Positions 278-15,702 of a stretch of DNA of 38,877 nt are shown here, one piece after another. This stretch comes from Arenibacter latericius DSM 15913 (GTDB lineage Bacteria; Bacteroidota; Bacteroidia; Flavobacteriales; Flavobacteriaceae): contig NZ_AUKX01000048.1 of NCBI RefSeq assembly GCF_000424985.1, forward strand, positions 1 through 38,877, given 5' to 3'. The notes below the pieces were generated by a model, which saw nothing but the letters and a program-made list of their open reading frames with translations, did not search any database and was not told the origin of the DNA. The position numbers and the translations under genes are program-made. Each line of letters starts with the position of its first letter. Positions within the stretch are counted from its first letter, which is position 1.

Positions 278-404
278 ACCTAAAGATACAAATAATAGCT
301 ATTATAAACTAGAGCCTGGATGTCTTTGCATTATAAATAGGTTTTACATCCTTTAAGCTTCTTATAAATCCGATAAAATTGTCATTCTTACAGACCTATT
401 TGTT
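1..404 (-). mobile_element. Right part of an IS1595-like insertion sequence; exact end unresolved
   Basis: This holds the transposase start and about 125 bases of AT-rich flank. GGATGT at 318-323 and ACATCC at 346-351 form a short inverted repeat near the presumed element end, but I could not identify a terminal inverted repeat or target duplication because the other end lies outside the window. The right limit given is simply the in-frame stop that precedes the host-gene remnant. Confidence 0.45.
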
Positions 405-406
405 AA

Positions 407-577
407 AACGGGTTTAAAAGTGAGCAAAATTGCTATGGACATGCTATAATTTCAGTAGATTTATGCGTTATAGGGGAACAGAAATCTTTTAAATTATTTT
501 CAAAGATTTTAGGGAACCATGGTGGAGCGGAAGAAATGCGTTCTATGGAATTGATTTTTAATATATTAAAGGAATAA
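407..577 (+). pseudogene. eboA: C-terminal remnant of the gene ahead of eboB, probably eboA
   Basis: A frame open from the codon after the TAA at 404-406 to the TAA at 575-577 encodes 56 residues with normal protein character: it begins NGFKSEQNCYGHAIISVD and ends MELIFNILKE. It has no start codon at its beginning; the first ATG is far inside. It ends 9 bases before the eboB start, as an operon gene would. In ebo clusters eboA normally precedes eboB, and the expected N-terminal part is replaced here by IS1595-like DNA. I read it as eboA cut by the insertion. The identity rests on position, since I cannot recognise EboA from these 56 residues alone. Confidence 0.5.
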
Positions 578-586
578 AAAGTTGTT

Positions 587-1495
587 ATGGAAGAGAAAAT
601 GATGATTATTGACCCGCACGTACATATGACCGCTAGGACTACTGACGATTATGAGGCTATGGCGGAAGCAGGGGTGGTAGCTGTTATTGAACCATCATTT
701 TGGTTAGGTCAACCGCGTACACAAGTGGGGTCTTTTCAGGATTATTATAGTAGTTTGGTGGGCTGGGAGCCGTTTAGGGCTAGCCAATTTGGAATAAAGC
801 ACTATTGTACTATTGGTTTAAATTCTAAAGAAGCCAATAACGAAGCTTTGGCAGAGCAGGTAATGGAATTACTGCCACTTTATTTACATAAGGAAAATGT
901 AGTTGCAATTGGTGAGATTGGCTATGATGATCAAACTCCTGCTGAAGATAAATATTTTAGACTGCAGCTAGAACTTGCTAAAGAACTTAACTTGCCTGTA
1001 CAGGTACATACCCCGCATAGAGATAAAAAATCTGGAACTATTAGAAGTATGGAAGTGTGTTTAGAACACGGGTTGGATCCTTCTATGGTAGTTATTGATC
1101 ATAACAATGAAGAAACGGTTAAAGAAGTGCTTGATCGAGGTTTTTTAGCGGCATTTACTATCTACCCAAAAACGAAAATGGGAAATGAGAGAATGGTTGA
1201 GGTGGTTAGGAAATTCGGTAGTAATGGGATAATTGTGGATAGTTCTGCAGATTGGGGTGTAAGTGATCCTCTGGCAGTTCCAAAAACCGCATCTTTAATG
1301 CTGAAAAGAGGAATAGCTAGAGAAGATGTGGTAAAGACTTGCTATCAGAACGCTTTGGATATCTTTGGAATGAATGGAAAAATGAAAGAATCCGATTGGT
1401 TAAATCCTGAAGGTATTAATCAGACCAAATTATATAATGATAATAGTGTTTTAAGAGGACAAGAGCCAAAGGTAGATACCGATAAAATAGTATAA
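587..1495 (+). CDS. eboB: EboB, TatD-family metal-dependent hydrolase of the ebo cluster
   Basis: The 302-residue protein has the TatD/amidohydrolase TIM-barrel pattern: metal ligands H11 and H13 in PHVHM, E110 in AIGEIGYDD, H141 in QVHTPHRD, H172-region residues in VVIDHNNEE, and an Asp in IIVDSSADWG near 218. Generic TatD proteins are about 260 residues and act as nucleases or hydrolases; the longer variants in ebo (edb) clusters have no established substrate. The family call comes from these motifs, and the ebo assignment comes from the following genes, which give the full B-C-D-E-F order. The ATG at 587 follows the upstream remnant by 9 bases. The stop overlaps the eboC start (TAATG), so the two are translationally coupled. 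The original promoter was probably upstream of the interrupted eboA, so present expression may depend on the IS. Confidence 0.85.
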   Translation: MEEKMMIIDPHVHMTARTTDDYEAMAEAGVVAVIEPSFWLGQPRTQVGSFQDYYSSLVGWEPFRASQFGIKHYCTIGLNSKEANNEALAEQVMELLPLYLHKENVVAIGEIGYDDQTPAEDKYFRLQLELAKELNLPVQVHTPHRDKKSGTIRSMEVCLEHGLDPSMVVIDHNNEETVKEVLDRGFLAAFTIYPKTKMGNERMVEVVRKFGSNGIIVDSSADWGVSDPLAVPKTASLMLKRGIAREDVVKTCYQNALDIFGMNGKMKESDWLNPEGINQTKLYNDNSVLRGQEPKVDTDKIV

Positions 1496-2388
1496 TGAAT
1501 CCTATTATAAAAGGGTATTTACAGCTTACTAGGCCTGCTAACTTACCCACATCAGCTGCTGATATTTTGGCTGGAATCGCTATTTCTGGCTTTTTCTTGA
1601 CTAGTAGTCAGGAGTCTAGCTTGGGATGGCTAACGGTTTTATTATTGATGGGGTCTTCTGTACTCTTATATGCCTCTGGAGTGGTCCTGAATGATGTTTT
1701 TGATTATCGATTAGATCTGGTAGAGCGACCCGAAAGGCCAATCCCTTCAGGGGTAGTCTCGTTAACTTCAGCTGCTATTTTTGGAGGTGCTTTAATGGTT
1801 TTAGGGATTTTAGCTGCGTTTTGGGTGGGTATTACCAGTGGAGTAATTGCGCTTGGACTAGGGGCGTCTATTTTAATGTATGATACTTTAGGAAAGCACC
1901 ATTCTTTTTTTGGTCCCTTGAATATGGGGCTGTGTAGGGGGTTTAATCTATTATTAGGAATGTCTATTCTAGGTAATCTTATCCATTGGCAATATGCAAT
2001 AATTCCAATCGCTTATATAGCAGCAATTACTTTGATAAGTAGGGGAGAGGTGCATGGGGATAACAAAAAACATATTTTATTAGCGGCTATGTTGTATGTT
2101 ATGGTGGTATTAACAATCACAATAATCCTATTGTATACTGGTCAAAACATTCTCATATCTCTACCATTTATTCTTCTTTTTACCCTATTAATTTTTAGGC
2201 CATTGCTAAAAGCGTATAAAGAAAACTCACCTCACAACATAAAAATGGCGGTGAAAGCTGGGGTGATTTCCATTATTGTTTTGGATGCTGCCCTAGCGAC
2301 AGGATTCTCTTATTGGTGGGTAGGAGTTCTTACCCTGCTGTTGTTGCCTTTATCAATTTTTTTATCCAAACTATTTGCAGTAACTTAA
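1495..2388 (+). CDS. eboC: EboC, UbiA-family prenyltransferase
   Basis: This 297-residue polytopic membrane protein has the UbiA signature NDVFDYRLDLVERPERPIPSG at about residues 65-85, with the Asp-rich prenyl-diphosphate/Mg site, and a second polar motif around MYDTLGKHH. Eight or nine hydrophobic segments fill the rest. UbiA enzymes attach isoprenoid chains to acceptors at the membrane. Within ebo clusters the acceptor is unknown, and the cluster has been linked to moving metabolites such as the scytonemin precursor to the cyanobacterial periplasm. The start overlaps the eboB stop by one base, and eboD follows after 10 bases. I am sure of the family and confident of the ebo membership, but no substrate can be read from the sequence. 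Confidence 0.88.
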   Translation: MNPIIKGYLQLTRPANLPTSAADILAGIAISGFFLTSSQESSLGWLTVLLLMGSSVLLYASGVVLNDVFDYRLDLVERPERPIPSGVVSLTSAAIFGGALMVLGILAAFWVGITSGVIALGLGASILMYDTLGKHHSFFGPLNMGLCRGFNLLLGMSILGNLIHWQYAIIPIAYIAAITLISRGEVHGDNKKHILLAAMLYVMVVLTITIILLYTGQNILISLPFILLFTLLIFRPLLKAYKENSPHNIKMAVKAGVISIIVLDAALATGFSYWWVGVLTLLLLPLSIFLSKLFAVT

Positions 2389-2398
2389 TTTAAAAAGT

Positions 2399-3574
2399 AT
2401 GCAACATTATAAAACAATATCACAATCCTTTAAGGTGTCTTACGAATATAAGCTTCATTTTACCGAGCATATATTTAAGGAAGGTAATACACTGTTTAAG
2501 GACCTAATTAAAGAATACAATCCGAAAGGAAAGGTAAAGGTATTATTTGTTATTGATAGTGGGGTACTGGAATGTCACCCTAACTTATCCGATCAAATTA
2601 CAGCCTATTGTAAAGTTAATAGTGCAGAAATCTATGGTACCGAACAGATTGTTGTACCAGGGGGTGAGCAGTGTAAAAATGATTATGGTAATGTAGAGCG
2701 AATTTTACAAGCTGTTAATGATAACAAAATTTGTAGGCATTCTTTTGTGGTGGCTATAGGAGGTGGTGCTATAATAGATATGGTAGGATATGCTGCGGCT
2801 ATTGCTCATAGAGGGGTTAAACTAATCCGTATCCCAACTACCGTTTTATCTCAGAATGATTCTGCTGTTGGCGTAAAGAACAGTATTAATATTTTAGGAA
2901 AGAAAAACTTCCTAGGCACTTTTGCACCCCCTTATGCTATTATTAATGATCCCTTTTTCTTGACTACATTAGAGCAGCGAGATTGGATTTCTGGAATTTC
3001 GGAAGCTATAAAAGTTGCCCTTATTAAGGATAAGGTGTTTTTTGAGTTTTTAGAGCAAAATAGCTTAAAACTAAGGGATAGGGATATGCCAGCCATGCAA
3101 TACCTTATTTACAGATGTGCAGAAATGCACATGGAGCATATTGCACAAGGTGGTGATCCTTTTGAAAGCGGTTCTTCTAGGCCATTAGATTTTGGCCATT
3201 GGGCTGCGCATAAACTAGAGTTCATGACCAATTATCAATTGCGTCATGGGGAAGCAGTAGCAATAGGAATGGCATTAGATGTTACCTATGCTCACCTAAT
3301 TGGCATGATTGATAAAAGTACTTTAGATAGAATTTTGGAGGTGCTTCAAAATATAGGGTTCGATATACATATACCCTTATCTGAAGAGAAGGAAATAGAG
3401 GAGCTGTTAAATGGAATAGAAGAGTTTAGAGAGCATCTGGGAGGAGAACTTACCATTACACTTATCTCTGAAATTGGAGTTAAGCAAGATGTCCATGTTA
3501 TTGATCGAGAGATTATGAAAAATGCTATAGTGTGGTTAAATAATGAATTAGAACCTAAAATTTCAATCCAATAG
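2399..3574 (+). CDS. eboD: EboD, 3-dehydroquinate synthase-like sugar-phosphate cyclase
   Basis: The 391-residue protein has the dehydroquinate synthase fold markers: the NAD-binding GGGAIIDMVGYAAA at about 121-134, PTTVLSQNDSAVGVKNSIN around 146-163, and metal ligands E202, H267 (DFGHWAAHKLE) and H283 (RHGEAV). All three metal ligands are present, so catalysis is plausible. It is probably not the housekeeping AroB: it sits in the ebo operon, the region after PTT reads LSQNDSAVG rather than the usual AroB sequence, and it is longer than a typical AroB (about 355 residues). It may cyclise a sugar phosphate to a product used by the cluster. The stop codon TAG overlaps the GTG start of eboE. Confidence 0.87.
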   Translation: MQHYKTISQSFKVSYEYKLHFTEHIFKEGNTLFKDLIKEYNPKGKVKVLFVIDSGVLECHPNLSDQITAYCKVNSAEIYGTEQIVVPGGEQCKNDYGNVERILQAVNDNKICRHSFVVAIGGGAIIDMVGYAAAIAHRGVKLIRIPTTVLSQNDSAVGVKNSINILGKKNFLGTFAPPYAIINDPFFLTTLEQRDWISGISEAIKVALIKDKVFFEFLEQNSLKLRDRDMPAMQYLIYRCAEMHMEHIAQGGDPFESGSSRPLDFGHWAAHKLEFMTNYQLRHGEAVAIGMALDVTYAHLIGMIDKSTLDRILEVLQNIGFDIHIPLSEEKEIEELLNGIEEFREHLGGELTITLISEIGVKQDVHVIDREIMKNAIVWLNNELEPKISIQ

Positions 3575-4767
3575 TGCTGATAAAAGATAAATTTCACCTT
3601 AGTTATTGTACAAATATCCACCCAGGCGAAGATTGGAAGCAGACTTGGGAGAATTTAGAAGAATACCTTCCAAAAGTTAAGGAGCAGGTTTCTCCAAAGC
3701 AGCCATTTGGTGTTGGTTTACGCTTATCTAATGTAGCAAGCCTGGAGCTACAAGAAGGAAGTCGATTGCAAGAATTTAAAGATTGGCTAGAGGAGAACGA
3801 TCTTTATGTTTTTACTATGAATGGATTTCCTTATGGAAATTTTCATAATGAAAGAGTAAAGGATATGGTTCATGCGCCTGATTGGACTACCGCAGACCGA
3901 TTGGAGTATACTATACGACTTTTTAAACAACTCGCTTTTCTTCTGCCGAAAGGTATCAAAGGCGGAATTTCTACTTCACCTATAAGTTACAAATTTTGGC
4001 ATGCTTCTGAAAAAGCAACGGATAAGGCTTTTGTTGACGGTGCTACCAATATGATAGCGGTGGCATTGCAGTTAATAGACATAGAAGAGAAGACAGGAAA
4101 ACATCTGCATTTGGATATTGAACCGGAACCAGATGGAATGCTAGAAAATAGTGTTGAGGTATTGGAGTTTTATGGTAGCTATTTAATTCCAATCGGAACT
4201 AAGATTTTGGTAGATAAGCTTGGATGTACTACTTCCAAAGCCAAAGAATTAATTCTGAGGCATATTATGATCTGTTATGATGTATGCCATTTTTCTCTTG
4301 CCTATGAAGAGCCTCAATATACTTTGAAGAAATTTAAGGACGCCGGAATAGAGGTAGGAAAGATACAAGTGAGTTCTGCACTAAAGATCCTTTTCGAGGA
4401 AGGTAATAATGAAGCAATTTGGCAAACCTTAGAAAGGTTTAACGAACCTACTTATTTGCATCAAGTTACCCGCAAAAAGGGTGATCAGGTGTTTACATAT
4501 AGGGATCTACCGGAGCTTTTGACCAAAAAAGGAGATTTTACCGAGTTGCGAGCGCACTTTCATGTGCCTATTTTTATGGAGCAATACGAATCTTTATTTT
4601 CTACTCAAGATCAGATTTTAAAAGTTTTGGAGTTGCTTAAAAAGGATCCATTTTCGGACCACTTGGAAATAGAGACCTATACATGGGACGTATTGCCAAA
4701 AGAATTAAAGATGGAGCTATCAGCATCTATAGTTCGTGAAGTGAAATGGTTAAAGAATAAGTTGTAA
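3574..4767 (+). CDS. eboE: EboE, sugar-phosphate isomerase/epimerase-like TIM-barrel protein
   Basis: This 397-residue protein reads as a xylose-isomerase-like/AP-endonuclease-2-type TIM barrel. Metal-type residues occur in LHLDIEPEPDG (near residue 177), ICYDVCHFSLAYEEP (near 232) and in RAHFHVPIF (near 328). The start is GTG at 3574, overlapping the eboD stop (TAGTG). No ATG nearby would keep the conserved N-terminus KFHLSYCTNIHPGEDW, so the GTG is the supported start. The reaction is unknown; proteins of this group isomerise or epimerise sugars or related polyols. The gene is followed after 3 bases by eboF. The call is secure at fold and cluster level only. Confidence 0.85.
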   Translation: MLIKDKFHLSYCTNIHPGEDWKQTWENLEEYLPKVKEQVSPKQPFGVGLRLSNVASLELQEGSRLQEFKDWLEENDLYVFTMNGFPYGNFHNERVKDMVHAPDWTTADRLEYTIRLFKQLAFLLPKGIKGGISTSPISYKFWHASEKATDKAFVDGATNMIAVALQLIDIEEKTGKHLHLDIEPEPDGMLENSVEVLEFYGSYLIPIGTKILVDKLGCTTSKAKELILRHIMICYDVCHFSLAYEEPQYTLKKFKDAGIEVGKIQVSSALKILFEEGNNEAIWQTLERFNEPTYLHQVTRKKGDQVFTYRDLPELLTKKGDFTELRAHFHVPIFMEQYESLFSTQDQILKVLELLKKDPFSDHLEIETYTWDVLPKELKMELSASIVREVKWLKNKL

Positions 4768-4770
4768 ATA

Positions 4771-6147
4771 ATGAAGAAGACTGTTGTTATAAATGTTGTA
4801 GGATTGTCTAGAGGATTAATAGGAGAGCATACTCCATTTATTAAATCCTTTTTGGATAAAGGAAGTTGGGGTGCTATTACTCCGCAATTGCCTGCAGTTA
4901 CCTGTGCGGCACAAGCTACCTATTTAACGGGTAAAACACCTGCAGAACATGGAATAGTGGCTAATGGGTGGTATTTTAAAGAAGAACATGAGATAAAATT
5001 TTGGCGACAATCTAATACCCTTATACAATCAGATAAGATTTGGGATAAGTTAAAGAAAAAGGATCCCAATTTTACCTGTGCTAATCTTTTTTGGTGGTAC
5101 AATATGTATTCTAATGCCGATTTTAGTGCAACTCCTAGGCCTAATTACTTGGCAGATGGAAGAAAAATCCCAGACTTTTATTCGCATCCTGCAGCACTAC
5201 GCGATACACTTCGGGACGAATTAGGAGATTTTCCATTGTTTCACTTTTGGGGCCCAAAAACCTCTATAAAATCTAGTCAGTGGATAGCGGATGCTACTAT
5301 TAAAACAGATAGCTTACACAATCCTACACTTACTTTGGTGTATTTGCCACACTTGGATTATAATTTGCAGCGTCATGGTAAGGATTTTTCAAAAATAGGG
5401 AAGGATTTACGAGAGATAGATGCTGTGGTTAAACAATTGGTAGATCATTTTGAAAGTAAGTCGGCTAATGTTATTCTTCTTTCCGAATATGGTATAACCA
5501 ACGTTACTAACCCCGTCCATTTAAATAGGGTTCTTAGAAAGGAAGGTTATATCGGTATTAGGGTAGAACGTGGATTAGAATTATTAGATGCAGGTGCAAG
5601 TGATGCTTTTGCTGTTGCAGATCATCAATTGGCACATGTGTATGTGAAAGACCCTAATAATATAGATAAAATTAAAAACCTCCTTAAAAAAGTAAAAGGG
5701 GTAGAGCAGGTCTTATCTGGAGATGAAATTAAAGAGGTTCACTTGAATCATGAGCGCTGTGGGGATATAGTGGTAGTAGCTGATAAGGATTCTTGGTTTA
5801 CGTACTATTTTTGGTTAGATGATAAAAAGGCTCCTGATTATGCTAGGATGGTAGATATTCATAAAAAACCAGGTTATGATCCTGTGGAAATGTTGACAGA
5901 CCCTAAGGATAAATTGGTGATGCCCAAAGTAGCATGGAAATTACTGAAAAAGAAGCTAGGCTTTAGGTCTGTATTGGATATTATTCCTTTAGATGCCACC
6001 TTGATAAAAGGTTCTCATGGTAGAATTCCTGAAGATAGAAATGACCTTCCTATACTTATCAGCAACAAAAAGGGAGACAAAATTGCGGACTCTTTATTAG
6101 CAACAGAAGTTTTTGGAGTAATAGAAAATCATATCTTAGATACCTAG
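4771..6147 (+). CDS. eboF: EboF, nucleotide pyrophosphatase/phosphodiesterase-like protein
   Basis: The 458-residue protein belongs to the alkaline-phosphatase superfamily, NPP/type I phosphodiesterase branch. The nucleophile region PAVTCAAQATYLTGKTPAEHG lies at about 41-61 (Thr 44 the likely nucleophile), YLPHLDYNLQRHG is at about 191-203, and a C-terminal GSHGRIPEDRNDLPILIS gives the last metal His. There is no signal peptide, so it should act in the cytoplasm. Alkaline-phosphatase-like proteins close the ebo clusters described in bacteria and eustigmatophyte plastids. The substrate is not known. The next gene begins one base after its stop codon, so both are likely in one transcript. Confidence 0.86.
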   Translation: MKKTVVINVVGLSRGLIGEHTPFIKSFLDKGSWGAITPQLPAVTCAAQATYLTGKTPAEHGIVANGWYFKEEHEIKFWRQSNTLIQSDKIWDKLKKKDPNFTCANLFWWYNMYSNADFSATPRPNYLADGRKIPDFYSHPAALRDTLRDELGDFPLFHFWGPKTSIKSSQWIADATIKTDSLHNPTLTLVYLPHLDYNLQRHGKDFSKIGKDLREIDAVVKQLVDHFESKSANVILLSEYGITNVTNPVHLNRVLRKEGYIGIRVERGLELLDAGASDAFAVADHQLAHVYVKDPNNIDKIKNLLKKVKGVEQVLSGDEIKEVHLNHERCGDIVVVADKDSWFTYYFWLDDKKAPDYARMVDIHKKPGYDPVEMLTDPKDKLVMPKVAWKLLKKKLGFRSVLDIIPLDATLIKGSHGRIPEDRNDLPILISNKKGDKIADSLLATEVFGVIENHILDT

Positions 6148-6148
6148 A

Positions 6149-6502
6149 ATGAAACTTTTTTCGAAAATATTCGCATTTATATTTGCCATACTGTTTGTCT
6201 GGTCAGCCGTCCTGCAATATAACGATCAGGATGCATGGATGTGGTACGCTATCTATGGTATAGCTGCATTGGCTTCTGTATTTTTTATTTTTAATAGATT
6301 ACTGTTATCGGTAGGGGTATTGCTCTCTTTTGCTTATTTAATAGGGAGCTATATTTTTTGGCCGGAAAAATATGAAGGAGTATCTATTGGAGGTGGGGAT
6401 ATAGATAATATAGAACGCGCTAGAGAGTCGCTCGGACTTTTAATAAGTGCTATGGTAATGCTTTTTTACGCTTGGCGAATTAGATTTTCTAAGAAAGCTT
6501 AA
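6149..6502 (+). CDS. TMEM220-like small membrane protein
   Basis: The 117-residue protein has four hydrophobic segments (about 5-20, 32-49, 51-68 and 92-109) with the characteristic NDQDAWMWYAIYG motif after the first one. This matches the transmembrane family 220 (TMEM220), found in animals and bacteria and without a known function. It starts one base after the eboF stop, so it is probably co-transcribed with the ebo genes and may work with EboC at the membrane; that is inference from position. Its stop codon overlaps that of dnaX on the other strand (TTAA at 6499-6502), leaving no room for a terminator between the converging genes. Confidence 0.78.
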   Translation: MKLFSKIFAFIFAILFVWSAVLQYNDQDAWMWYAIYGIAALASVFFIFNRLLLSVGVLLSFAYLIGSYIFWPEKYEGVSIGGGDIDNIERARESLGLLISAMVMLFYAWRIRFSKKA

Positions 6503-8340
6503 ATATCTAGGTCGAATTCTTTTCTAAGCAAGTCGATAGCTGGATTTTTCTCTCTTAGTTTAAGATATTTTTCCTCTGGGGTAAATGCGAATTTTTTCGC
6601 GCTGGTTTCGTTTACCGTTATTTCTAAGGTGATGAAGTGATTGTGGAGTTTTTGTTTTAAGGTTTCGATTAGGTCATACTTCTCTCGCTCCACTTCTTTT
6701 TTCATGGTGTCATTGGGAAGCTCAATCCAAATCACAAAATCTTCCTTTAATTTAGGACGATCTGCATTTAAATTGGAGGCTAATATTTTCTGACCCTTCT
6801 TGTCGATCATATCAACAAAATCTGCCCAATGTTTTTGTAGTTCCTGTTCTGTAAAAACTGATTTAGGCAAACTACTTTCATCTATTACCTCGTCTTTCTT
6901 ATTGAGTTCGTGCTCTTTTTTCGCCTTTAAACTAGACAAACTAAGGCCAGATACTCTTTTCTTACTCCCTTTTAAGTCAATCTTAATTTTTTTAGCCTCA
7001 GAACTCTTAGCTTCTTCAAGCGTAGCTGACTGCTTTTGTATAGTAGGTTTTGCAGCTACAGTAGGTGCAGTAGCCGAAGTAGTATCGCTTGCAGTTGGTG
7101 TATTTTGAGTTTGCTCTTGTTGATGGGTTGGAGTAACAATCGAGGAAGCTCCTTCGGTGGCTTTTTGAGCTGCTGGAGCATTTGCCTTCCTCTCTTTTTT
7201 ATTGACTCTATAAAAAGAAGCAGGAATTATAAAGTCGGGCCTACCTCGACCAGTTTCTAAGTGCTTAGACTTTTTTTTTTCTCCATCAAAGTCGATGGAG
7301 GCTAATTTCATTAGGGTTAGTTCTACAAGTAGTCGTTGATGCTTACTGCTTTTGTATTTTGTATCGCAATCATTCGCTAGGTCTATAGCTTCCAAAAGGA
7401 ACGAACCCGATGTTTTTTGCGATTGTTCTAAATATTGTTTTTTTGCTTCTTCGCCAACTTCTAATAGCGGGATGGTGTTTTGGTGCTTGCAGACCATTAA
7501 ATCTCTAAAATGAGAAGCTAGGCCAATTATAAAATGATGCCCATCAAAACCTTGTGCTAACGTTTCATTAAATAAAACTAATAAACCTGGAATGTCTCGA
7601 CCTAAAATAAGATCGGTAGCCTTAAAGTAAGTGTCGTAATCTAAAACATTTAGATTCTCGGTTACCGCTTTTCTAGTTAATTTTTTTCCAGAAAAGCTAA
7701 CTACCCTATCAAAAATAGAAAGGGCATCACGCATGGCACCATCTGCTTTTTGAGCTATGATGTGTAGTGCGTCGTCATCTGCATCTATCTCTTGATTGTC
7801 TGCAATATATTTTAAGTATTCAGCCGTATCTTTTACTGTAATCCGCTTAAAATCGAAAATCTGACAGCGAGATAGAATAGTAGGGATTATTTTATGTTTC
7901 TCTGTGGTGGCTAGAATAAAAATAGCATGTGCCGGTGGTTCTTCTAACGTCTTTAAAAAAGCGTTAAAGGCCGCTTGGGACAACATGTGCACCTCATCTA
8001 TAATGTATACCTTATATTTCCCTACTTGTGGTGGAATCCGTACTTGGCTAGTAAGCTCCCTAATATCATCTACCGAGTTGTTAGATGCGGCATCCAGCTC
8101 AAAAATGTTAAAAGCAAAATCTTCATCTTCTGATGCTACTGCTTGCTGATTAATCTGTTTTGCTAATATTCTTGCGCAGGTAGTTTTTCCAACTCCTCTA
8201 GGACCGGTAAACAATAACGCTTGGGCCAAATGATTGTTTTCAATGGCGTTGGTTAACGTATTGGTAATAGCCTGCTGCCCTACCACATCCTTGAAAGTTT
8301 TGGGTCTATATTTTCGTGCAGATACTATAAAAGGTTCCAA
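6499..8340 (-). CDS. dnaX: DNA polymerase III subunit gamma/tau
   Basis: The 613-residue clamp-loader ATPase has Walker A GPRGVGKT (46-53), sensor/DEVHMLSQAAFNAFLKTLEEPP as Walker B, and ATTEKHKIIPTILSRCQ (sensor 1, Arg finger SRC). The four-cysteine zinc module usual between Walker A and DAASNNSVDDIR is missing (the stretch reads INQQAVASEDEDF), which to my knowledge is the normal flavobacterial form. The collar domain ends near residue 350, followed by a low-complexity Ala/Thr/Lys linker and a C-terminal tau-specific domain ending in RKEFDLDI. A run of ten A residues in the coding strand at codons 354-357 lies exactly at the collar-linker boundary and may permit a shorter gamma form (see the separate entry). 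It diverges from rnpB. Confidence 0.96.
   Translation of the reverse strand: MEPFIVSARKYRPKTFKDVVGQQAITNTLTNAIENNHLAQALLFTGPRGVGKTTCARILAKQINQQAVASEDEDFAFNIFELDAASNNSVDDIRELTSQVRIPPQVGKYKVYIIDEVHMLSQAAFNAFLKTLEEPPAHAIFILATTEKHKIIPTILSRCQIFDFKRITVKDTAEYLKYIADNQEIDADDDALHIIAQKADGAMRDALSIFDRVVSFSGKKLTRKAVTENLNVLDYDTYFKATDLILGRDIPGLLVLFNETLAQGFDGHHFIIGLASHFRDLMVCKHQNTIPLLEVGEEAKKQYLEQSQKTSGSFLLEAIDLANDCDTKYKSSKHQRLLVELTLMKLASIDFDGEKKKSKHLETGRGRPDFIIPASFYRVNKKERKANAPAAQKATEGASSIVTPTHQQEQTQNTPTASDTTSATAPTVAAKPTIQKQSATLEEAKSSEAKKIKIDLKGSKKRVSGLSLSSLKAKKEHELNKKDEVIDESSLPKSVFTEQELQKHWADFVDMIDKKGQKILASNLNADRPKLKEDFVIWIELPNDTMKKEVEREKYDLIETLKQKLHNHFITLEITVNETSAKKFAFTPEEKYLKLREKNPAIDLLRKEFDLDI
7271..7300 (-). 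promoter_or_regulatory. Candidate slippage/frameshift site in dnaX (hairpin + A10)
   Basis: In the coding direction, a perfect 7-bp hairpin (CTCCATC, loop GACTTT, GATGGAG; plus-strand 7281-7300) is followed at once by ten A residues (plus-strand T run 7271-7280), read as GAA AAA AAA AAG. Gain of one A in the transcript, or a -1 ribosomal slip, gives K-V-stop straight away, and a protein of about 358 residues that ends just after the clamp-loader collar domain. Loss of one A also stops within five codons. Known dnaX genes make gamma by -1 frameshifting (E. coli, A AAA AAG) or by transcriptional slippage on an A run (Thermus). Use of the site here is inferred. Confidence 0.5.
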
Positions 8341-9411: not shown

Positions 9412-10251
9412 TTAAAAAGAATTTAAGAGTGTAAAATCTATCGATTCTCGATCTAGATTTCCAAAGTGAAAATGGTTGGCGTGGGAGGGGATAAAAATTG
9501 ATATATCCTTAATGTAAGTATGACAGAGCTGAAAGAGGGGATCCCCTTCTTCTATTGAACCAAATAGTTTTAATTTAGTCGTCTCTGTGTCTAACTTTAG
9601 TTGCTCTAGGGTAAATAATAAGTAATAAATAAAATCTTCCTTAGCGGTAAAACTAAAATTGTTGTACAGTAGTAGTTTTTTGTTTTGGATAACGGTTATA
9701 TCCATGTGTTCTTCCATTACATGAACATAACAAATAGGCTCGTTGGTGCTACCGTGGCTATTTATGAGATTTTTTATCAATACTGTTCCGTTGTGCATAA
9801 ACTCAAAATCCCCAAATAAATCGTAGATATAGTTGTTTATATTAACAAAGGGTACATAAACATTAACCATGTCCATATTAGCGATTTCATCATATTCGAG
9901 ATGATCGTTTGCCAATATTTTTGCGTTGAACTTTAGGTAGTTGGCTAATTCATCTTTGTTAAAAAGAGCATTGGGAACAAGACAGAATAGATTGTTTCTG
10001 TGTATAACAACTACTTCGGAAAATTGTATTTTCTGTATTTCGTTATCCTCAAAAAGTTGTTTTATTTCTTTTTGCAGGGCATAAGGAGTTAGTTCACTTT
10101 CGAAACTTATTCTTTCGGAAGTGATAACAGTATTGGAAAGTGTGTCCAATACACAAAAAGAAAGTCCATTCAAGCTAACTTGAATGGACAATTTATGATA
10201 TTCCGATTTAGATTCTTCTAAAATCTTATTGGTCGTTTCGTTTGTCATAGA
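9412..10251 (-). CDS. DUF3822 family protein
   Basis: The protein resembles the Bacteroidota-specific DUF3822 family: an early LSIQVSLNGLSFCVLDT motif (near residues 19-35), a middle section ending in NDHLEYDEIANMDMVNVYVP, and a C-terminal IYYLLFTLEQLKLDTE region. The fold is thought to be actin/ATPase-like, but no biochemical role is established. I chose the ATG at 10251 (MTNETTNK), which overlaps the upstream gene by 26 bases; an in-frame ATG at 10269 would add six residues and overlap by 44. Placement between the pseudopilin-like gene and rsmD is a recurring flavobacterial order as far as I recall. Confidence 0.75.
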   Translation of the reverse strand, partial: SMTNETTNKILEESKSEYHKLSIQVSLNGLSFCVLDTLSNTVITSERISFESELTPYALQKEIKQLFEDNEIQKIQFSEVVVIHRNNLFCLVPNALFNKDELANYLKFNAKILANDHLEYDEIANMDMVNVYVPFVNINNYIYDLFGDFEFMHNGTVLIKNLINSHGSTNEPICYVHVMEEHMDITVIQNKKLLLYNNFSFTAKEDFIYYLLFTLEQLKLDTETTKLKLFGSIEEGDPLFQLCHTYIKDISIFIPSHANHFHFGNLDRESIDFTLLNSF

Positions 10252-10876
10252 TAGATGGCCAATTTCCACTGGTACTTACCTCGGTCATGGATCCAACTTT
10301 GATTACGCTGCCATTAACTTCATCAACGTTGATCTGAGCATTTTCTTTTGCTAGTAATTCTTTAGGTTGGTCGTGTAAAACAACATCTTTATTTACTTTA
10401 ACTTCAAATACAGGGGCTTTATAACCTCCTTTTTCAACAATTCCAGATTTCATGTCGAATTGCTCATTATTTTTTGCATAAGGAACATTCATCATAGTCT
10501 TATAACGAGTGTCGCTCTTAAATAATGAATCTTTAACCGATACAAAACCAAGCGTATCTATAATCTTTACTTCTTTTAACATGTCAATGCCAAAATGCTT
10601 GTCGTATTCCATATAAGAGGAATCTCTTTGCTGTGTAAGGATATATTTGCCAGTATCCACAAATTTAATCAAAGAATTAAAATCTTTGGCGTATTTTCCA
10701 TTTACGCTTTTATAAGCCTCTTGCGAATTTCTAATATCCTTAAGATTCGCTATTACCTTGGCAAAACGCTCTTGTTTAACTTTCTTAAACTCAATAGGGC
10801 CATTGATAGATTTATAGATCATAAACGCTAATCCTATACTTACCAGCCAAAGAAAAATCTGTAATACGGTCTTCAT
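10226..10876 (-). CDS. Pseudopilin-like membrane-anchored protein of unknown function
   Basis: This 216-residue protein has one N-terminal membrane helix (residues 5-22), then a long amphipathic helix (FKKVKQERFAKVIANLKDIR) leading into SQEAYKSVNGKYAKDFNSL. That last pattern recalls the helix and first loop of type II secretion pseudopilins, but no prepilin-peptidase cleavage motif (G-F before the helix) is obvious. The remainder is a soluble, charge-rich domain, expected outside the cytoplasm if the helix is an uncleaved anchor. I do not recognise a named family. Its last 26 bases overlap the start of the DUF3822 gene, so the two are translated from one message. Confidence 0.65.
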   Translation of the reverse strand: MKTVLQIFLWLVSIGLAFMIYKSINGPIEFKKVKQERFAKVIANLKDIRNSQEAYKSVNGKYAKDFNSLIKFVDTGKYILTQQRDSSYMEYDKHFGIDMLKEVKIIDTLGFVSVKDSLFKSDTRYKTMMNVPYAKNNEQFDMKSGIVEKGGYKAPVFEVKVNKDVVLHDQPKELLAKENAQINVDEVNGSVIKVGSMTEVSTSGNWPSIYDKRNDQ

Positions 10877-10942
10877 TTCTTATGTGTTATTATATTTAGT
10901 GGTTGTCACAAATCTACAATTTTTTTTTAATGCCAAAAGCAT

Positions 10943-10970
10943 TTGGCCTTAAAAATACTGATTATCTTTG
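10943..10970 (+). promoter_or_regulatory. Promoter of the RecD-like helicase gene
   Basis: TTG at 10943-10945, a 17-base spacer, and TATCTTTG at 10963-10970 give a near-perfect Bacteroidota promoter. Transcription should start about 7 bases after the box, that is at 10976-10978, which coincides with the ATG at 10978. Confidence 0.7.
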
Positions 10971-10977
10971 AAGACCT

Positions 10978-12417
10978 ATGAATATTATATCTGACACTAG
11001 TTTTTATAAATTACTAAAAGAGAAATTTCCACACCACCCAACGCTTAAACAGTCGGTTGCTTTACAGCAACTTGCGACCTTTGCGTTATCAAAAGAAAAG
11101 GACACCGTTTTTTTATTGAAGGGCTTTGCAGGAACTGGAAAAACCACTATTGTTGGTACTATTGTAACCAATTTGTGGAATACAACCATGAAATCGGTAT
11201 TGTTGGCTCCTACTGGAAGGGCAGCAAAAGTTATGTCTAATTATTCAGGGACACAAGCATTTACTATTCATAGGAAAATTTATTTCCCTAAAAAACAAAG
11301 AGGAGGTGGGGTGCAGTTTGTACTTTCTCCTAATAAACATAAGAATACGCTGTTTATTGTAGATGAAGCCTCGATGATTTCTGATAGTCCCACGGATTCT
11401 AAATTAATGGAGAATGGATCTTTATTAGATGATTTAATGACCTATGTCTATTCTGGTCATAATTGTAAACTTATATTAATAGGAGATACAGCGCAGTTAC
11501 CACCTGTTCATTTAAATCTTAGTCCGGCATTAGATGAGGGGCAATTGTCCTTACATTATAATAAGGAGGTGATTAATATGGAAATGGATGAAGTGGTGAG
11601 GCAGGCAGAGGATTCAGGGATATTAGCCAATGCTACTAATTTAAGAGAGCAGTTACAGAGTGAATTTTATGATGATTTTAAATTTTCAGTCTCTCCCTAT
11701 GCCGATATTGTGCGATTAATTGATGGGCACGACATACAGGAAGCTATAGATGAATCCTATTCTCAAAATGGAAAAGAGGAAACCGCAATCATTGTTCGTT
11801 CTAATAAAAGGGCTAATCTGTACAATGAAAATATTAGAAATAGAATCCTATTCCTAGAAAATGAATTGGCAGTTGGGGATTATATGATGGTGGTGAAGAA
11901 TAACTATTTCTGGCTTAAACCTTCTTCTGAAGCTGGGTTTATTGCCAATGGAGATATTATAGAGATATTAGAAATCTTTGCAATTAAGGAATTATACGGA
12001 TTTAAATTTGCTGAAGTAAAGGTGAAAATGGTAGATTATCCCAATCAGAAACCCTTTGAGACGGTATTGTTATTAGATACTATAATGGCAGAAACGCCGT
12101 CTTTACCTTATGAGGACGGTAACCGTTTATATCAAGAAGTAATGAAAGATTACGCTGATGAGACATCTAAGTATAAAAAGTTTTTGGCAGTTAAGAACAA
12201 TACTTTTTTCAATGCCCTTCAGGTTAAATTTTCCTATGCTATTACCTGTCATAAATCGCAGGGTGGACAATGGAATACGGTTTTTGTAGAGCAGCCCTAT
12301 TTGCCTAATGGTATCGATAAGGAATATCTAAGGTGGCTTTATACTGCCATCACTAGGGCAAAGGACAAGCTGTATTTAATAGGGTTTAAGAACGATTTTT
12401 TTCTTGATTCGGAATAG
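10978..12417 (+). CDS. RecD-like superfamily 1 DNA helicase (AAA ATPase)
   Basis: The 479-residue protein carries helicase motifs in order: motif I GFAGTGKTT (49-57), Ia LLAPTGRAAKVMS (near 79-91), II FIVDEASMI (near 127), III LIGDTAQLPPV (near 163), and the UvrD/RecD C-terminal motifs FSYAITCHKSQGGQW (near 421) and LYTAITRAKDKLYLIGF (near 452). It is much smaller than RecD2 (about 700-750 residues) and lacks a RecBC context, so it should be named only as an ATP-dependent RecD-like helicase, likely in DNA repair or recombination. The start ATG sits at the predicted transcription start, so the mRNA appears leaderless. The DUF4126 gene follows after 27 bases. Confidence 0.88.
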   Translation: MNIISDTSFYKLLKEKFPHHPTLKQSVALQQLATFALSKEKDTVFLLKGFAGTGKTTIVGTIVTNLWNTTMKSVLLAPTGRAAKVMSNYSGTQAFTIHRKIYFPKKQRGGGVQFVLSPNKHKNTLFIVDEASMISDSPTDSKLMENGSLLDDLMTYVYSGHNCKLILIGDTAQLPPVHLNLSPALDEGQLSLHYNKEVINMEMDEVVRQAEDSGILANATNLREQLQSEFYDDFKFSVSPYADIVRLIDGHDIQEAIDESYSQNGKEETAIIVRSNKRANLYNENIRNRILFLENELAVGDYMMVVKNNYFWLKPSSEAGFIANGDIIEILEIFAIKELYGFKFAEVKVKMVDYPNQKPFETVLLLDTIMAETPSLPYEDGNRLYQEVMKDYADETSKYKKFLAVKNNTFFNALQVKFSYAITCHKSQGGQWNTVFVEQPYLPNGIDKEYLRWLYTAITRAKDKLYLIGFKNDFFLDSE

Positions 12418-13149: not shown

Positions 13150-13878
13150 ATGAAAATCATCGCAATGATACCCGCACGCTATGCAGCTTCTAGGTTTCCT
13201 GGAAAGTTAATGCAAGATTTGCAGGGAAAACCAGTTATACAAAGAACTTATGAGGCGGCGGTAAAAACAGGCTTGTTTCAGGAAGTATACGTAGTAACAG
13301 ATAGTCTGGTTATTTATGAATGCATTGAAAAAATAGGTGGTAAAGCCATAATGAGTAAGAAGGAGCACGAATGCGGTAGTGATCGTATTGCCGAAGCTGT
13401 GGAGAATATGGACGTAGATATCATCGTAAATGTTCAGGGAGACGAACCTTTTACGGATAGGGAGAGTCTTGCAGGGGTTATAGAAGTGTTTAAAGACGAC
13501 CATAAGAAGGAAATAGACCTTGCATCACTTATGACAAGGATAACAGATTGGGTAGAAATTAATGACCCTAATACGGTGAAGGTTATTGTAGATAAAGAGA
13601 GTTTTGCCCTTTATTTTTCAAGAGCTCCTATACCGTACCCAAGAGCACGGGAATTAGATATCCCTTATTATAAGCATAAGGGGGTATATGCTTTTAGGAA
13701 AGAAGCCTTAATGGATTTTCAAAGACTGCCTATGCAAATATTGGAAGCGACAGAAAAAATAGAAGCAATCCGGTATTTAGAATATGGTAAAAAAATAAAA
13801 ATGGTGGAAACTAATATTTCTGGAATTGAAATAGATACCCCAGAAGATTTAGAAAAGGCCAAGAATGTATGGAAGTAG
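13150..13878 (+). CDS. kdsB: 3-deoxy-manno-octulosonate cytidylyltransferase (CMP-Kdo synthetase)
   Basis: The 242-residue enzyme activates Kdo as CMP-Kdo for the lipopolysaccharide inner core. Visible motifs are [20 protein letters not shown] (7-26, the nucleotide-binding loop), VVTDS (48-52), VNVQGDEPF (94-102, with the Mg-binding Asp) and [11 protein letters not shown] near 178-188. Its length matches KdsB (about 250). It heads a four-gene operon with a HAD phosphatase (10-base overlap), a KdnB-like oxidase and an acyltransferase, all fitting envelope glycolipid synthesis. The presence of a KdnB homologue raises the possibility that the real substrate is 8-amino-Kdo, as for the Shewanella enzyme; the sequence alone does not decide that. 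Confidence 0.95.
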
Positions 13879-14588
13879 ATTATAATAAGATAAAAGTAAT
13901 TGGATTTGATGCAGATGATACCTTATGGGTAAATGAGACCTATTTTAGGGATACTGAAGAAAAATTTGCAAGTCTTTTAGATAAGTATGAAACCAAGAAT
14001 AAGATCGACCAAGAGCTCTATAAGACTGAAATAAATAACTTAGAGATTTATGGTTACGGGGTTAAAGGGTTTATGTTGTCCATGATAGAATCGGCATTAG
14101 ATTTATCAAATAATAAGATATCTCAAGCAACCATTGGGGATATTCTTAATCTTGGAAAGGAAATGTTGTCACATCCAGTAGAATTATTGGATGGAGTGGA
14201 AGAAGTATTACAAAAATTAAAGGATCACTATCGTTTAATAGTTTTAACTAAAGGAGATTTATTAGATCAGGAGCGGAAATTGGAAAAATCTGGCCTCTCT
14301 AAATATTTTCACCATGTGGAAGTTTTAAGTGATAAAAAGGAGATAAACTATAAAAACCTTTTAGAGCACTTGCGAATTCCAGTATCGGAATTTTTAATGG
14401 TAGGGAATTCCTTAAAATCGGATATCCTTCCCATAATAAATATAGGAGCTAAAGCGATTCATATTCCTTTTCATACCACTTGGCAGCATGAAGAAGTGAA
14501 ATTGGAGGAACATCAGAATGGTCATCTTACCCTGAACACCATTACTGATTTATTAAAATATCTTAACTATGGCAATGGAAGTAAGTAA
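13869..14588 (+). CDS. HAD-superfamily hydrolase
   Basis: The 239-residue protein has all HAD motifs: motif I FDADDTLW with nucleophile D14 and acid D16, motif II VLTKGD (near 117-122), a Lys in DKKEINYK (near 155) and motif [10 protein letters not shown] (near 172-179). The helical insert between motifs I and II (about 20-95) is a C1 cap, as in YjjG-type phosphatases, so it is not a KdsC-type (uncapped, about 180 residues) Kdo-8-phosphate phosphatase by sequence. It overlaps kdsB by 10 bases and the next gene by 20, so translation is coupled and a role in the same sugar pathway is likely. The substrate is unknown. Confidence 0.82.
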
Positions 14589-15702
14589 TAAGGAGAATGA
14601 GGAACAGATAGGAACAGAGGTAACACCTAATTATAGGAATTTCCCTATGGTTCCAAGGGTCATATTTGGTAATGGCTGTTTTAATCAATTGGGAGAGATC
14701 TTGCTACCAAAACGGAAAAGTGTTGAGGCTCCTATTATTTTTTTAATTGATGATGTTTTTGAAGGTACTTCACTTATATCTCGAGTTCCCTTATTTCCTA
14801 ACGATCAGATTATTTTTATCTCAGCAGAGGAAGAGCCTAAAACAGATCAGGTAGATATTTTAGTGAAGCAAGTGCGTAGCGAGTTTAAAGAACTTCCCTT
14901 AGGTATTGTAGGGATTGGGGGAGGAACCCTATTAGATTTGGCTAAAGCAGTTGCTATTATGTTGAATAATAAAGGGAAATCTGAGGAGTACCAGGGATGG
15001 GACTTGGTGAAAAAGCCATCCATCTATCATGTGGGTATTCCTACAATCAGCGGTACTGGTGCCGAGGTATCTAGGACAACAGTTTTATTAGGGCCAGAAA
15101 AGAAACTGGGTATAAATTCTGATTATACTACTTTTGACCAGGTAATCTTGGACCCAGACCTTACGAAAGGCGTTCCAAAAGAGCAGTGGTTTTATACAGG
15201 AATGGACTGCTATATTCATTGTGTAGAATCGTTAAATGGGACATTTTTAAATGCCTTTAGTCAGAGTTATGGGGAAAAAGCGTTAGAGTTGTGTAAAGAT
15301 GTTTTTTTAGAAGATTTGGAGGAATCAGAATCCAGAGATAAATTAATGATGGCGTCTTGGCACGGAGGGATGAGTATAGCCTATTCTCAAGTTGGTGTTG
15401 CCCATGCCATGAGTTATGGTCTCTCTTATTTATTGGGGGTTAGGCATGGTATTGGAAACTGCTTAGTTTTTCAATATTTAGAAGAGTTTTATCCGGAAGG
15501 AGTGGCTTTGTTTAATAAAATGATAGAAAAACACAACATATCCCTGCCAAAAGGAGTTTGTAGTGATTTAACCGATAGTGATTTTGATATCATGATTAAC
15601 GTGGCTCTTAGCCTAGAACCTCTTTGGGAAAATGCATTGGGTGCGGAATGGGAAAAACACATCAGTCCAGAGAAATTAAAATCAATATATCAAAAAATTT
15701 AA
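14569..15702 (+). CDS. kdnB: KdnB-like iron-containing alcohol dehydrogenase (Kdo 8-oxidase homologue)
   Basis: The 377-residue group III alcohol dehydrogenase has the NAD-binding GIGGGTLLDLAKAVA (115-129), VGIPTISGTGAEVSRTTV (155-172) and metal ligands D213, H217, H279 and H293. The stretch YQGWDLVKKP followed by GTGAEVSRT and NSDYTTFDQVILDPDLTK resembles KdnB of Shewanella, which oxidises Kdo at C8 so that KdnA can aminate it to 8-amino-Kdo. Its place after kdsB supports this. No KdnA-type PLP aminotransferase is in the window. The family call is firm and the KdnB assignment moderately so. The first 20 bases overlap the HAD gene; a second ATG two codons in is an equally possible start. Confidence 0.75.
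   Translation: MAMEVSNKENEEQIGTEVTPNYRNFPMVPRVIFGNGCFNQLGEILLPKRKSVEAPIIFLIDDVFEGTSLISRVPLFPNDQIIFISAEEEPKTDQVDILVKQVRSEFKELPLGIVGIGGGTLLDLAKAVAIMLNNKGKSEEYQGWDLVKKPSIYHVGIPTISGTGAEVSRTTVLLGPEKKLGINSDYTTFDQVILDPDLTKGVPKEQWFYTGMDCYIHCVESLNGTFLNAFSQSYGEKALELCKDVFLEDLEESESRDKLMMASWHGGMSIAYSQVGVAHAMSYGLSYLLGVRHGIGNCLVFQYLEEFYPEGVALFNKMIEKHNISLPKGVCSDLTDSDFDIMINVALSLEPLWENALGAEWEKHISPEKLKSIYQKI

Follow-up and report, generated by a model that had tools for sequence, protein, structure and literature searches.

Intact but separated eboA, a strain-specific insertion sequence and a TMEM220-family gene at the ebo locus of Arenibacter latericius

Has an ebo operon that lies directly behind an insertion sequence (IS) at a contig end lost its first gene and its promoter, and does the membrane-protein gene at its other end belong to it? 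Both questions are raised by a 38,877-nucleotide stretch of Arenibacter latericius DSM 15913 (contig NZ_AUKX01000048.1; hereafter the window), where plus-strand positions 587-6502 hold, according to the listing of open reading frames (ORFs), the five ebo genes eboB, eboC, eboD, eboE and eboF and a TMEM220-family gene (Table 1). The window starts at the contig end; its contig is designated C41 and its genome G000, and other G- and L-numbers denote genomes and loci, respectively. The original prediction, made from the sequence, held that the IS had destroyed eboA down to a 56-codon C-terminal remnant and had removed the native promoter, and that TMEM220 had been added as a possible membrane partner. 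We put at roughly 0.7 the probability that this is an ordinary Arenibacter ebo locus, with an intact eboA, genes inserted in the genus, eboBCDEF-TMEM220, a strain-specific IS between a sugar-dehydrogenase gene and the eboB spacer that most likely has little effect, and gene roles as proposed below.

The run has the marks of an ABCDEF-type ebo operon. EboC and EboE match their equivalog models far above the curated cut-offs, which bears out the identification as ebo, and a TatD-like EboB, an AroB-like EboD and a phosphodiesterase-like EboF complete the order B-C-D-E-F. The packed layout described at first is also confirmed by ORFs and family matches, from 1-base overlaps to 10-base gaps: the spacings are -1 (B/C), 10 (C/D), -1 (D/E), 3 (E/F) and 1 base (F/TMEM220, 6147/6149). 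According to the aroB model, EboD scores 240.4 bits, under the cut-off of 305, and a separate AroB gene with a score of 342 is located on contig C12; EboD is thus a paralogue of dehydroquinate synthase, with AroB itself encoded elsewhere in the genome.

EboA is encoded in the same genome. A search with the EboA of G002 returned a single stop-free match in each of the 18 genus genomes (the window's and 17 sisters), all of which also have eboB. In G000, eboA is found at C11:107113-107964, about 4.5 kb before the IS end that terminates contig C11; it has no internal stop, 83% identity to the query, and a score of 150.5 bits to the EboA domain model NF035938 (cut-off 50). The longer EboA family model NF035937, applied to the G002 protein only, gave 184.9, below its cut-off of 320. 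Loss of eboA in this strain was rejected because of this intact copy. A departure from the ABCDEF type concerns contiguity: eboA is apart from eboB in 17 of 17 sisters, and here as well, via the contig join discussed below.

As for TMEM220, its distribution was evaluated in two draws of genomes from the phylum, comprising 198 and 395 genomes, which overlap and are not independent. In the smaller sample EboE and EboA occur in the same 16 genomes, and TMEM220 was found in 13 of these 16 versus 14 of the 182 others. The larger draw has EboE in 31 genomes, TMEM220 in 50, and both in 24, which corresponds to 24 of 31 ebo-positive versus 26 of 364 ebo-negative genomes (Fisher p ~1e-18, a value that ignores relatedness); the G102 match, which at 22.6 bits is below the cut-off, is counted both in the 50 and in the 26. 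At the genus level, TMEM220 is present in 16 of 19 ebo-positive and 15 of 152 ebo-negative genera (Fisher p ~2e-11, again ignoring relatedness).

Physical linkage points in the same direction as co-occurrence, and both back the initial suggestion of TMEM220 as a partner. In 7 of the 24 co-occurring genomes TMEM220 is at most 6 kb from eboE, against an expected 0.07, and these copies lie after eboF, before eboA, and beside eboE (4, 2, and 1, respectively). Among 80 named ebo loci, which are the best 80 of 590 confirmed relatives and are biased to Flavobacteriaceae, TMEM220 is nearby in 48. The order of the window, after eboF on the same strand, recurs in 36 of the 80; the remaining linked copies are before eboA on the same strand (6), divergent before eboA (5, all Chitinophaga), or after eboF on the opposite strand (1), so that together with the position beside eboE five placements are observed. 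When only the named loci having a miaE or dnaX match, eboF, and at least 1.5 kb on each side are considered, TMEM220 follows eboF in 31 of 32, the sole exception being L162 from Confluentibacter. The gene called an "added" one is thus indeed joined to ebo, although it is not an addition of this strain, being common to many flavobacterial ebo operons.

The AlphaFold2 model of TMEM220, built with 37 aligned family proteins, has four helices (3-25, 29-47, 53-69, and 85-116) and a mean pLDDT of 94.8. Positions invariant in the alignment include N25, D26, D28, W32, E89, R92, E93, and G96, which map to the turn joining helices 1 and 2, to helix 2 itself, and close to where helix 4 begins. Human TMEM220 belongs to the same family (PF15071), for which the window protein scores well over the cut-off. 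Among the TMEM220 papers listed, titles and abstract beginnings mostly concern human cancer studies, and no bacterial function was seen in them.

Regarding known ebo systems, the ABCDEF-type operon of Bacteroidetes (Yurchenko et al. 2016, PMC5133447) has the same six genes, and Arenibacter is already named there as having a separated eboA; in comparison with the main text of that paper, where TMEM220 is not mentioned, the present locus has a strain-specific IS that adds to the separation. The Nostoc punctiforme cluster (Klicki et al. 2018, PMC6282210) encodes homologous EboA, B, C, E, and F, although eboD is apart there and the cluster serves the cyanobacterial pigment scytonemin; its deletion blocks scytonemin formation, and export of a precursor to the periplasm is proposed by the authors. 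The Ubi-297/EboC enzymes of Maribacter, Zobellia, and Algoriphagus (PMC9235831) are encoded in the same operon and belong to the EboC group, whose DxxDxxxD motif can be read from the translation of the window's eboC as DVFDYRLD. Membrane-fraction assays reported there indicate that the EboC homologues of these three genera farnesylate 8-hydroxyquinoline-2-carboxylic acid (8-HQA). No report linking TMEM220 with ebo or with a bacterial operon turned up in the literature searched: "tmem" does not occur in the main text of PMC5133447 or in PMC6282210, other papers being covered in part or as listings.

Based on these comparisons, the ebo products would act at the inner membrane to make a prenylated small molecule, which in turn would aid the passage of a metabolite to the periplasm. 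EboD may form a ring from a sugar phosphate, EboC would prenylate it, EboB, EboE, and EboF could perform tailoring or hydrolysis, and EboA might serve as a scaffold. TMEM220, with its four helices, would be an inner-membrane component and either work together with EboC, which is itself embedded in the membrane, or carry the EboC product. That TMEM220 is a seventh, frequently recruited ebo component in Bacteroidota, acting in the inner membrane as a partner of EboC or as an exporter of the EboC product, is a tentative proposal to which we give somewhat less than even odds. If true, it would provide a first functional context for a membrane family common to bacteria and humans and would show how enzymes that are mostly soluble can supply a step in the periplasm. 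The link is also a genetic handle on two problems together, the roles of ebo and of TMEM220. According to the named loci, the eboF-TMEM220 order is present in 1 of 1 Zobellia and 3 of 4 Maribacter but in 0 of 4 Algoriphagus loci; since all three genera have published EboC assays, they offer a natural contrast with and without TMEM220.

Several observations weigh against this picture. TMEM220 is absent from 7 of the 31 ebo-positive genomes, and none was seen in 32 of the 80 named loci within the available flanks, some of which are cut by contig ends; loci without it comprise 4 of 4 from Algoriphagus and 4 of 9 from Chitinophaga. The TMEM220 copy of 17 of the 24 co-occurring genomes lies farther than 6 kb from eboE or is on a different contig. 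Of 47 plasmid records with ebo, 5 loci were examined, 4 of them from outside Bacteroidota, and no TMEM220 was found in these. A fold search with the TMEM220 model gave no informative match. As for the operon itself, farnesylation of 8-HQA may not be the native reaction of EboC, and the contiguity of C11 and C41 is deduced from two contig-end sequences, not from reads. Because TMEM220 is lacking in part of the ebo-positive genomes and loci, it is not obligatory for ebo; it is recurrently linked with ebo in Bacteroidota, often but not always.

The same figures allow TMEM220 to be considered a passenger that is co-inherited or co-transferred with ebo without any shared function. Such a passenger would fit the single order seen in 36 of the 48 linked named cases, most of these within a single miaE-dnaX slot, and the occurrence of TMEM220 in ebo-negative genomes. 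One inherited block, however, does not explain five different placements, and simple co-inheritance is disfavoured for this reason; moreover, the enrichment persists at the genus level. We regard a passenger as unlikely, although it is the most probable of the alternatives.

The distance between eboA and eboB ranges from 1,281 to 9,774 bases in the 17 sisters, and the interval, where inspected, contains genes similar to 3-keto-disaccharide hydrolases and others on the opposite strand and, in most cases, the ThuA/dehydrogenase gene. Relatives from the same family have the contiguous arrangement ppk ... miaE(-) - eboABCDEF-TMEM220 - dnaX(-). Since Arenibacter keeps both borders of this slot, a later insertion is the simplest explanation for the genes that part eboA from eboB.

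Several individual loci differ from their relatives in the same region. In Croceivirga thetidis (L170:3039-7033) two minus-strand genes, homologous to junction genes of several Arenibacter, split eboA and eboB; the other two Croceivirga loci, L169 and L175, have compact ebo. In Zhouia amylolytica (L183, ~9652-11877) eboE is the sole ebo gene detected between miaE and dnaX, which looks like a relic of an ebo operon lost from the same slot. In the Maribacter litopenaei locus (L155) EboA is matched by two frames, and 453 bases separate the eboE match from that of eboF; this pattern suggests frameshifts, either in the operon itself or in the sequence as determined.

The inserted genes could also be explained if TMEM220 and ebo both served periplasmic sugar oxidation by ThuA/glucose-sorbosone dehydrogenase (GSDH)/cytochrome c proteins and 3-keto-disaccharide hydrolases. 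Sugar-oxidation genes are located beside or inside ebo in 16 of the 80 named loci. They part eboA from eboB in 6 Arenibacter loci and in C. thetidis, and they flank ebo in 5 loci of Chitinophaga and in single loci of Algoriphagus, Allomuricauda, Jejuia, Salegentibacter, and Seonamhaeicola. They are also near 6 of 40 TMEM220 copies away from ebo (a survey of 40 of 42 places, with G249 and G398 left out and TMEM220 recognised in 34 of the 40), and the Ketogulonicigenium ebo genes adjoin Gfo/Idh oxidoreductases. Among the 31 ebo-positive genomes, however, only 3 (G000, G345, and G244) have such a gene at a distance of up to five ORFs from ebo, which is a rough count, as ORF calling for these neighbourhoods missed some ebo genes (e.g. 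in L256, L279, and L284); in G228 related ORFs lie ~5 kb past eboF. The families also have many copies per genome, with 1-21 for GSDH and 0-26 for 3-keto-disaccharide hydrolase among the matches listed, and the number of such neighbours is consequently about what could arise by chance. A shared role in sugar oxidation is thus improbable, and we do not claim these genes as true ebo partners.

Some of these neighbourhoods have arrangements of their own. In five Chitinophaga loci (L180, L182, L186, L188, and L203) a second, ThuA-only match and a ThuA/dehydrogenase gene precede the TMEM220 that is divergent from eboA, so that the three elements are neighbours. The ebo cluster on a Ketogulonicigenium vulgare plasmid (L290) is rearranged; two Gfo/Idh/MocA oxidoreductases and a sugar phosphate isomerase adjoin it, while a c-type cytochrome and a dehydrogenase lie ~5 kb beyond.

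The DNA directly before eboB contains the open frame 407-577, which had been taken for the EboA remnant. The frame has no match to any Pfam or NCBIfam model. Window positions 313-600 align at 86% to the DNA before eboB in G007, where the counterpart is the spacer between the stop of the upstream gene and the eboB start, and shorter or weaker alignments are obtained for G003 (72%) and G002 (66%). None of the three sisters has an uninterrupted counterpart of the frame, and it is not conserved as a protein. The 56-codon frame was rejected as an EboA C-terminus on these grounds and is non-coding spacer.

The upstream region of eboB, whose native promoter was supposed to be lost, is evidently retained despite the IS. 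A TAnnTTTA box is found in 18 of 18 spacers (the window and 17 sisters), 123-137 bases before eboB, with a conserved GTTAAAA-n-TTTAAAA block upstream of it. The -7 form of Bacteroidota promoters is TAnnTTTG, to which TAnnTTTA is close. The spacer is the predicted promoter of eboBCDEF-TMEM220, and eboA would be transcribed separately from a predicted promoter of its own.

What the IS did hit is the gene upstream of this spacer. A long frame, which covers 904-1,071 residues of the 3.5 kb inspected, stops 247-266 bases before eboB in 15 of 17 sisters; according to Pfam, the G007 homologue combines domains of the ThuA, glucose/sorbosone dehydrogenase, PKD, and cytochrome c types. In G000 the body of this gene is on C11 (L066:9296-12511 in locus coordinates), and comparison of the flanks indicates that the dehydrogenase-like protein lost its four final residues and gained three from the IS. 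The damage is thus confined to the last few codons of the ThuA/sugar-dehydrogenase/cytochrome c gene. Of the ThuA/dehydrogenase gene, G002 (L028) retains just a C-terminal piece and G003 (L029) less, with the eboB spacer kept in both.

As originally predicted, the element in front is an IS1595-type one. It has a zinc-ribbon transposase N-terminus that exceeds the cut-off of NF050000 (the IS1/IS1595 zinc-binding domain), although the Pfam IS1595 zinc ribbon gives 25.1 bits, just below its cut-off of 25.4, as well as 12-bp terminal inverted repeats and the 8-bp target duplication TGGATGTC on both flanks. An 8-bp target duplication is typical of the IS1595 family. The element is split by the assembly, 316 bases being available on C41 and 352 on C11. 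C11 runs into the C-terminal stretch of a transposase and the window has the N-terminus, both on the minus strand; judging by the transposase halves, the inverted repeats, and the target duplication, the two contig ends appear to be halves of the same insertion. The IS end is absent from 17 of 17 sister ebo loci (exact 42-base search), and the insertion is strain-specific. Since the minus-strand transposase reads away from eboB, it offers no read-through into the operon.

That the IS destroyed eboA and the native promoter, leaving a natural eboA mutant or an IS-driven operon, is very improbable: an IS and an open frame do directly precede eboB, but eboA is intact on C11, the supposed remnant is evidently spacer, the ebo run begins at eboB behind an unrelated gene or relic in 17 of 17 sisters, none of whose ebo loci gave an exact 42-base match to this IS end, and the transposase is directed away. 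For eboA this reading is refuted, as both of the refuting conditions named with the original prediction hold: the remnant is not EboA, and the sister runs start at eboB. The dramatic part of the original prediction goes back to the edge of a contig and to an open frame within the spacer; it would have prompted experiments on a false premise, and the matter is now settled.

Table 1. Features of the ebo locus, in window coordinates unless a contig is given
Feature	Position	Strand	Support or remark
Right end of IS1595-type insertion sequence, cut by contig start	1-316	-	Transposase N-terminus 2-277, NF050000 49.6 bits (cut-off 28)
Terminal inverted repeat of IS	305-316		12-base, pairs with GGCTCTAGTTTA on C11
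8-bp target-site duplication TGGATGTC	317-324	.	Same 8 bp at IS end on contig C11
Last codons and stop of ThuA-GSDH-PKD-cytochrome c gene	317-340	+	G007 L027 alignment; gene body C11:109295-112510, cut off by IS
Intergenic spacer, probable eboB promoter region (originally an orphan C-terminus, 407-577)	341-586	+	86% to G007 spacer
TAnnTTTA box	456-463	+	-131 from eboB in window
eboB, TatD-family hydrolase, 302 aa	587-1495	+	PF01026 71.7 bits, E 8.1e-20
eboC, UbiA-family prenyltransferase, 297 aa	1495-2388	+	NCBIfam EboC NF035940 382.9 bits (cut-off 250), E 1e-114
eboD, dehydroquinate-synthase/sugar-phosphate-cyclase paralogue, 391 aa	2399-3574	+	NF004852 573.9 bits (cut-off 333)
eboE, TIM-barrel protein, GTG start, 397 aa	3574-4767	+	NCBIfam EboE NF035939 493.1 bits (cut-off 250), E 4.2e-148
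eboF, type I phosphodiesterase/nucleotide pyrophosphatase family, 458 aa	4771-6147	+	PF01663 220.1 bits, E 8.2e-65
TMEM220-family membrane protein, 117 aa, four helices	6149-6502	+	PF15071 73.3 bits (cut-off 27)
dnaX (DNA polymerase III gamma/tau), right border of conserved ebo slot	6499-8340	-	4-base convergent overlap with TMEM220

Beyond the ebo locus, the first 291-317 bases of the window have 100% identical copies at 8 other places in the genome (C1, C6, C17, C19, C33, C46, C48, and C70), each at most 36 bases from a contig end. This distribution indicates that the IS was cut by the assembly, and copies at so many contig ends suggest a recent burst of the element. Further along the window, at 13150-15702, three frames overlap in tandem, which from their translations we take to be a KdsB-like cytidylyltransferase, a HAD-family protein, and an iron-containing alcohol dehydrogenase-like protein.

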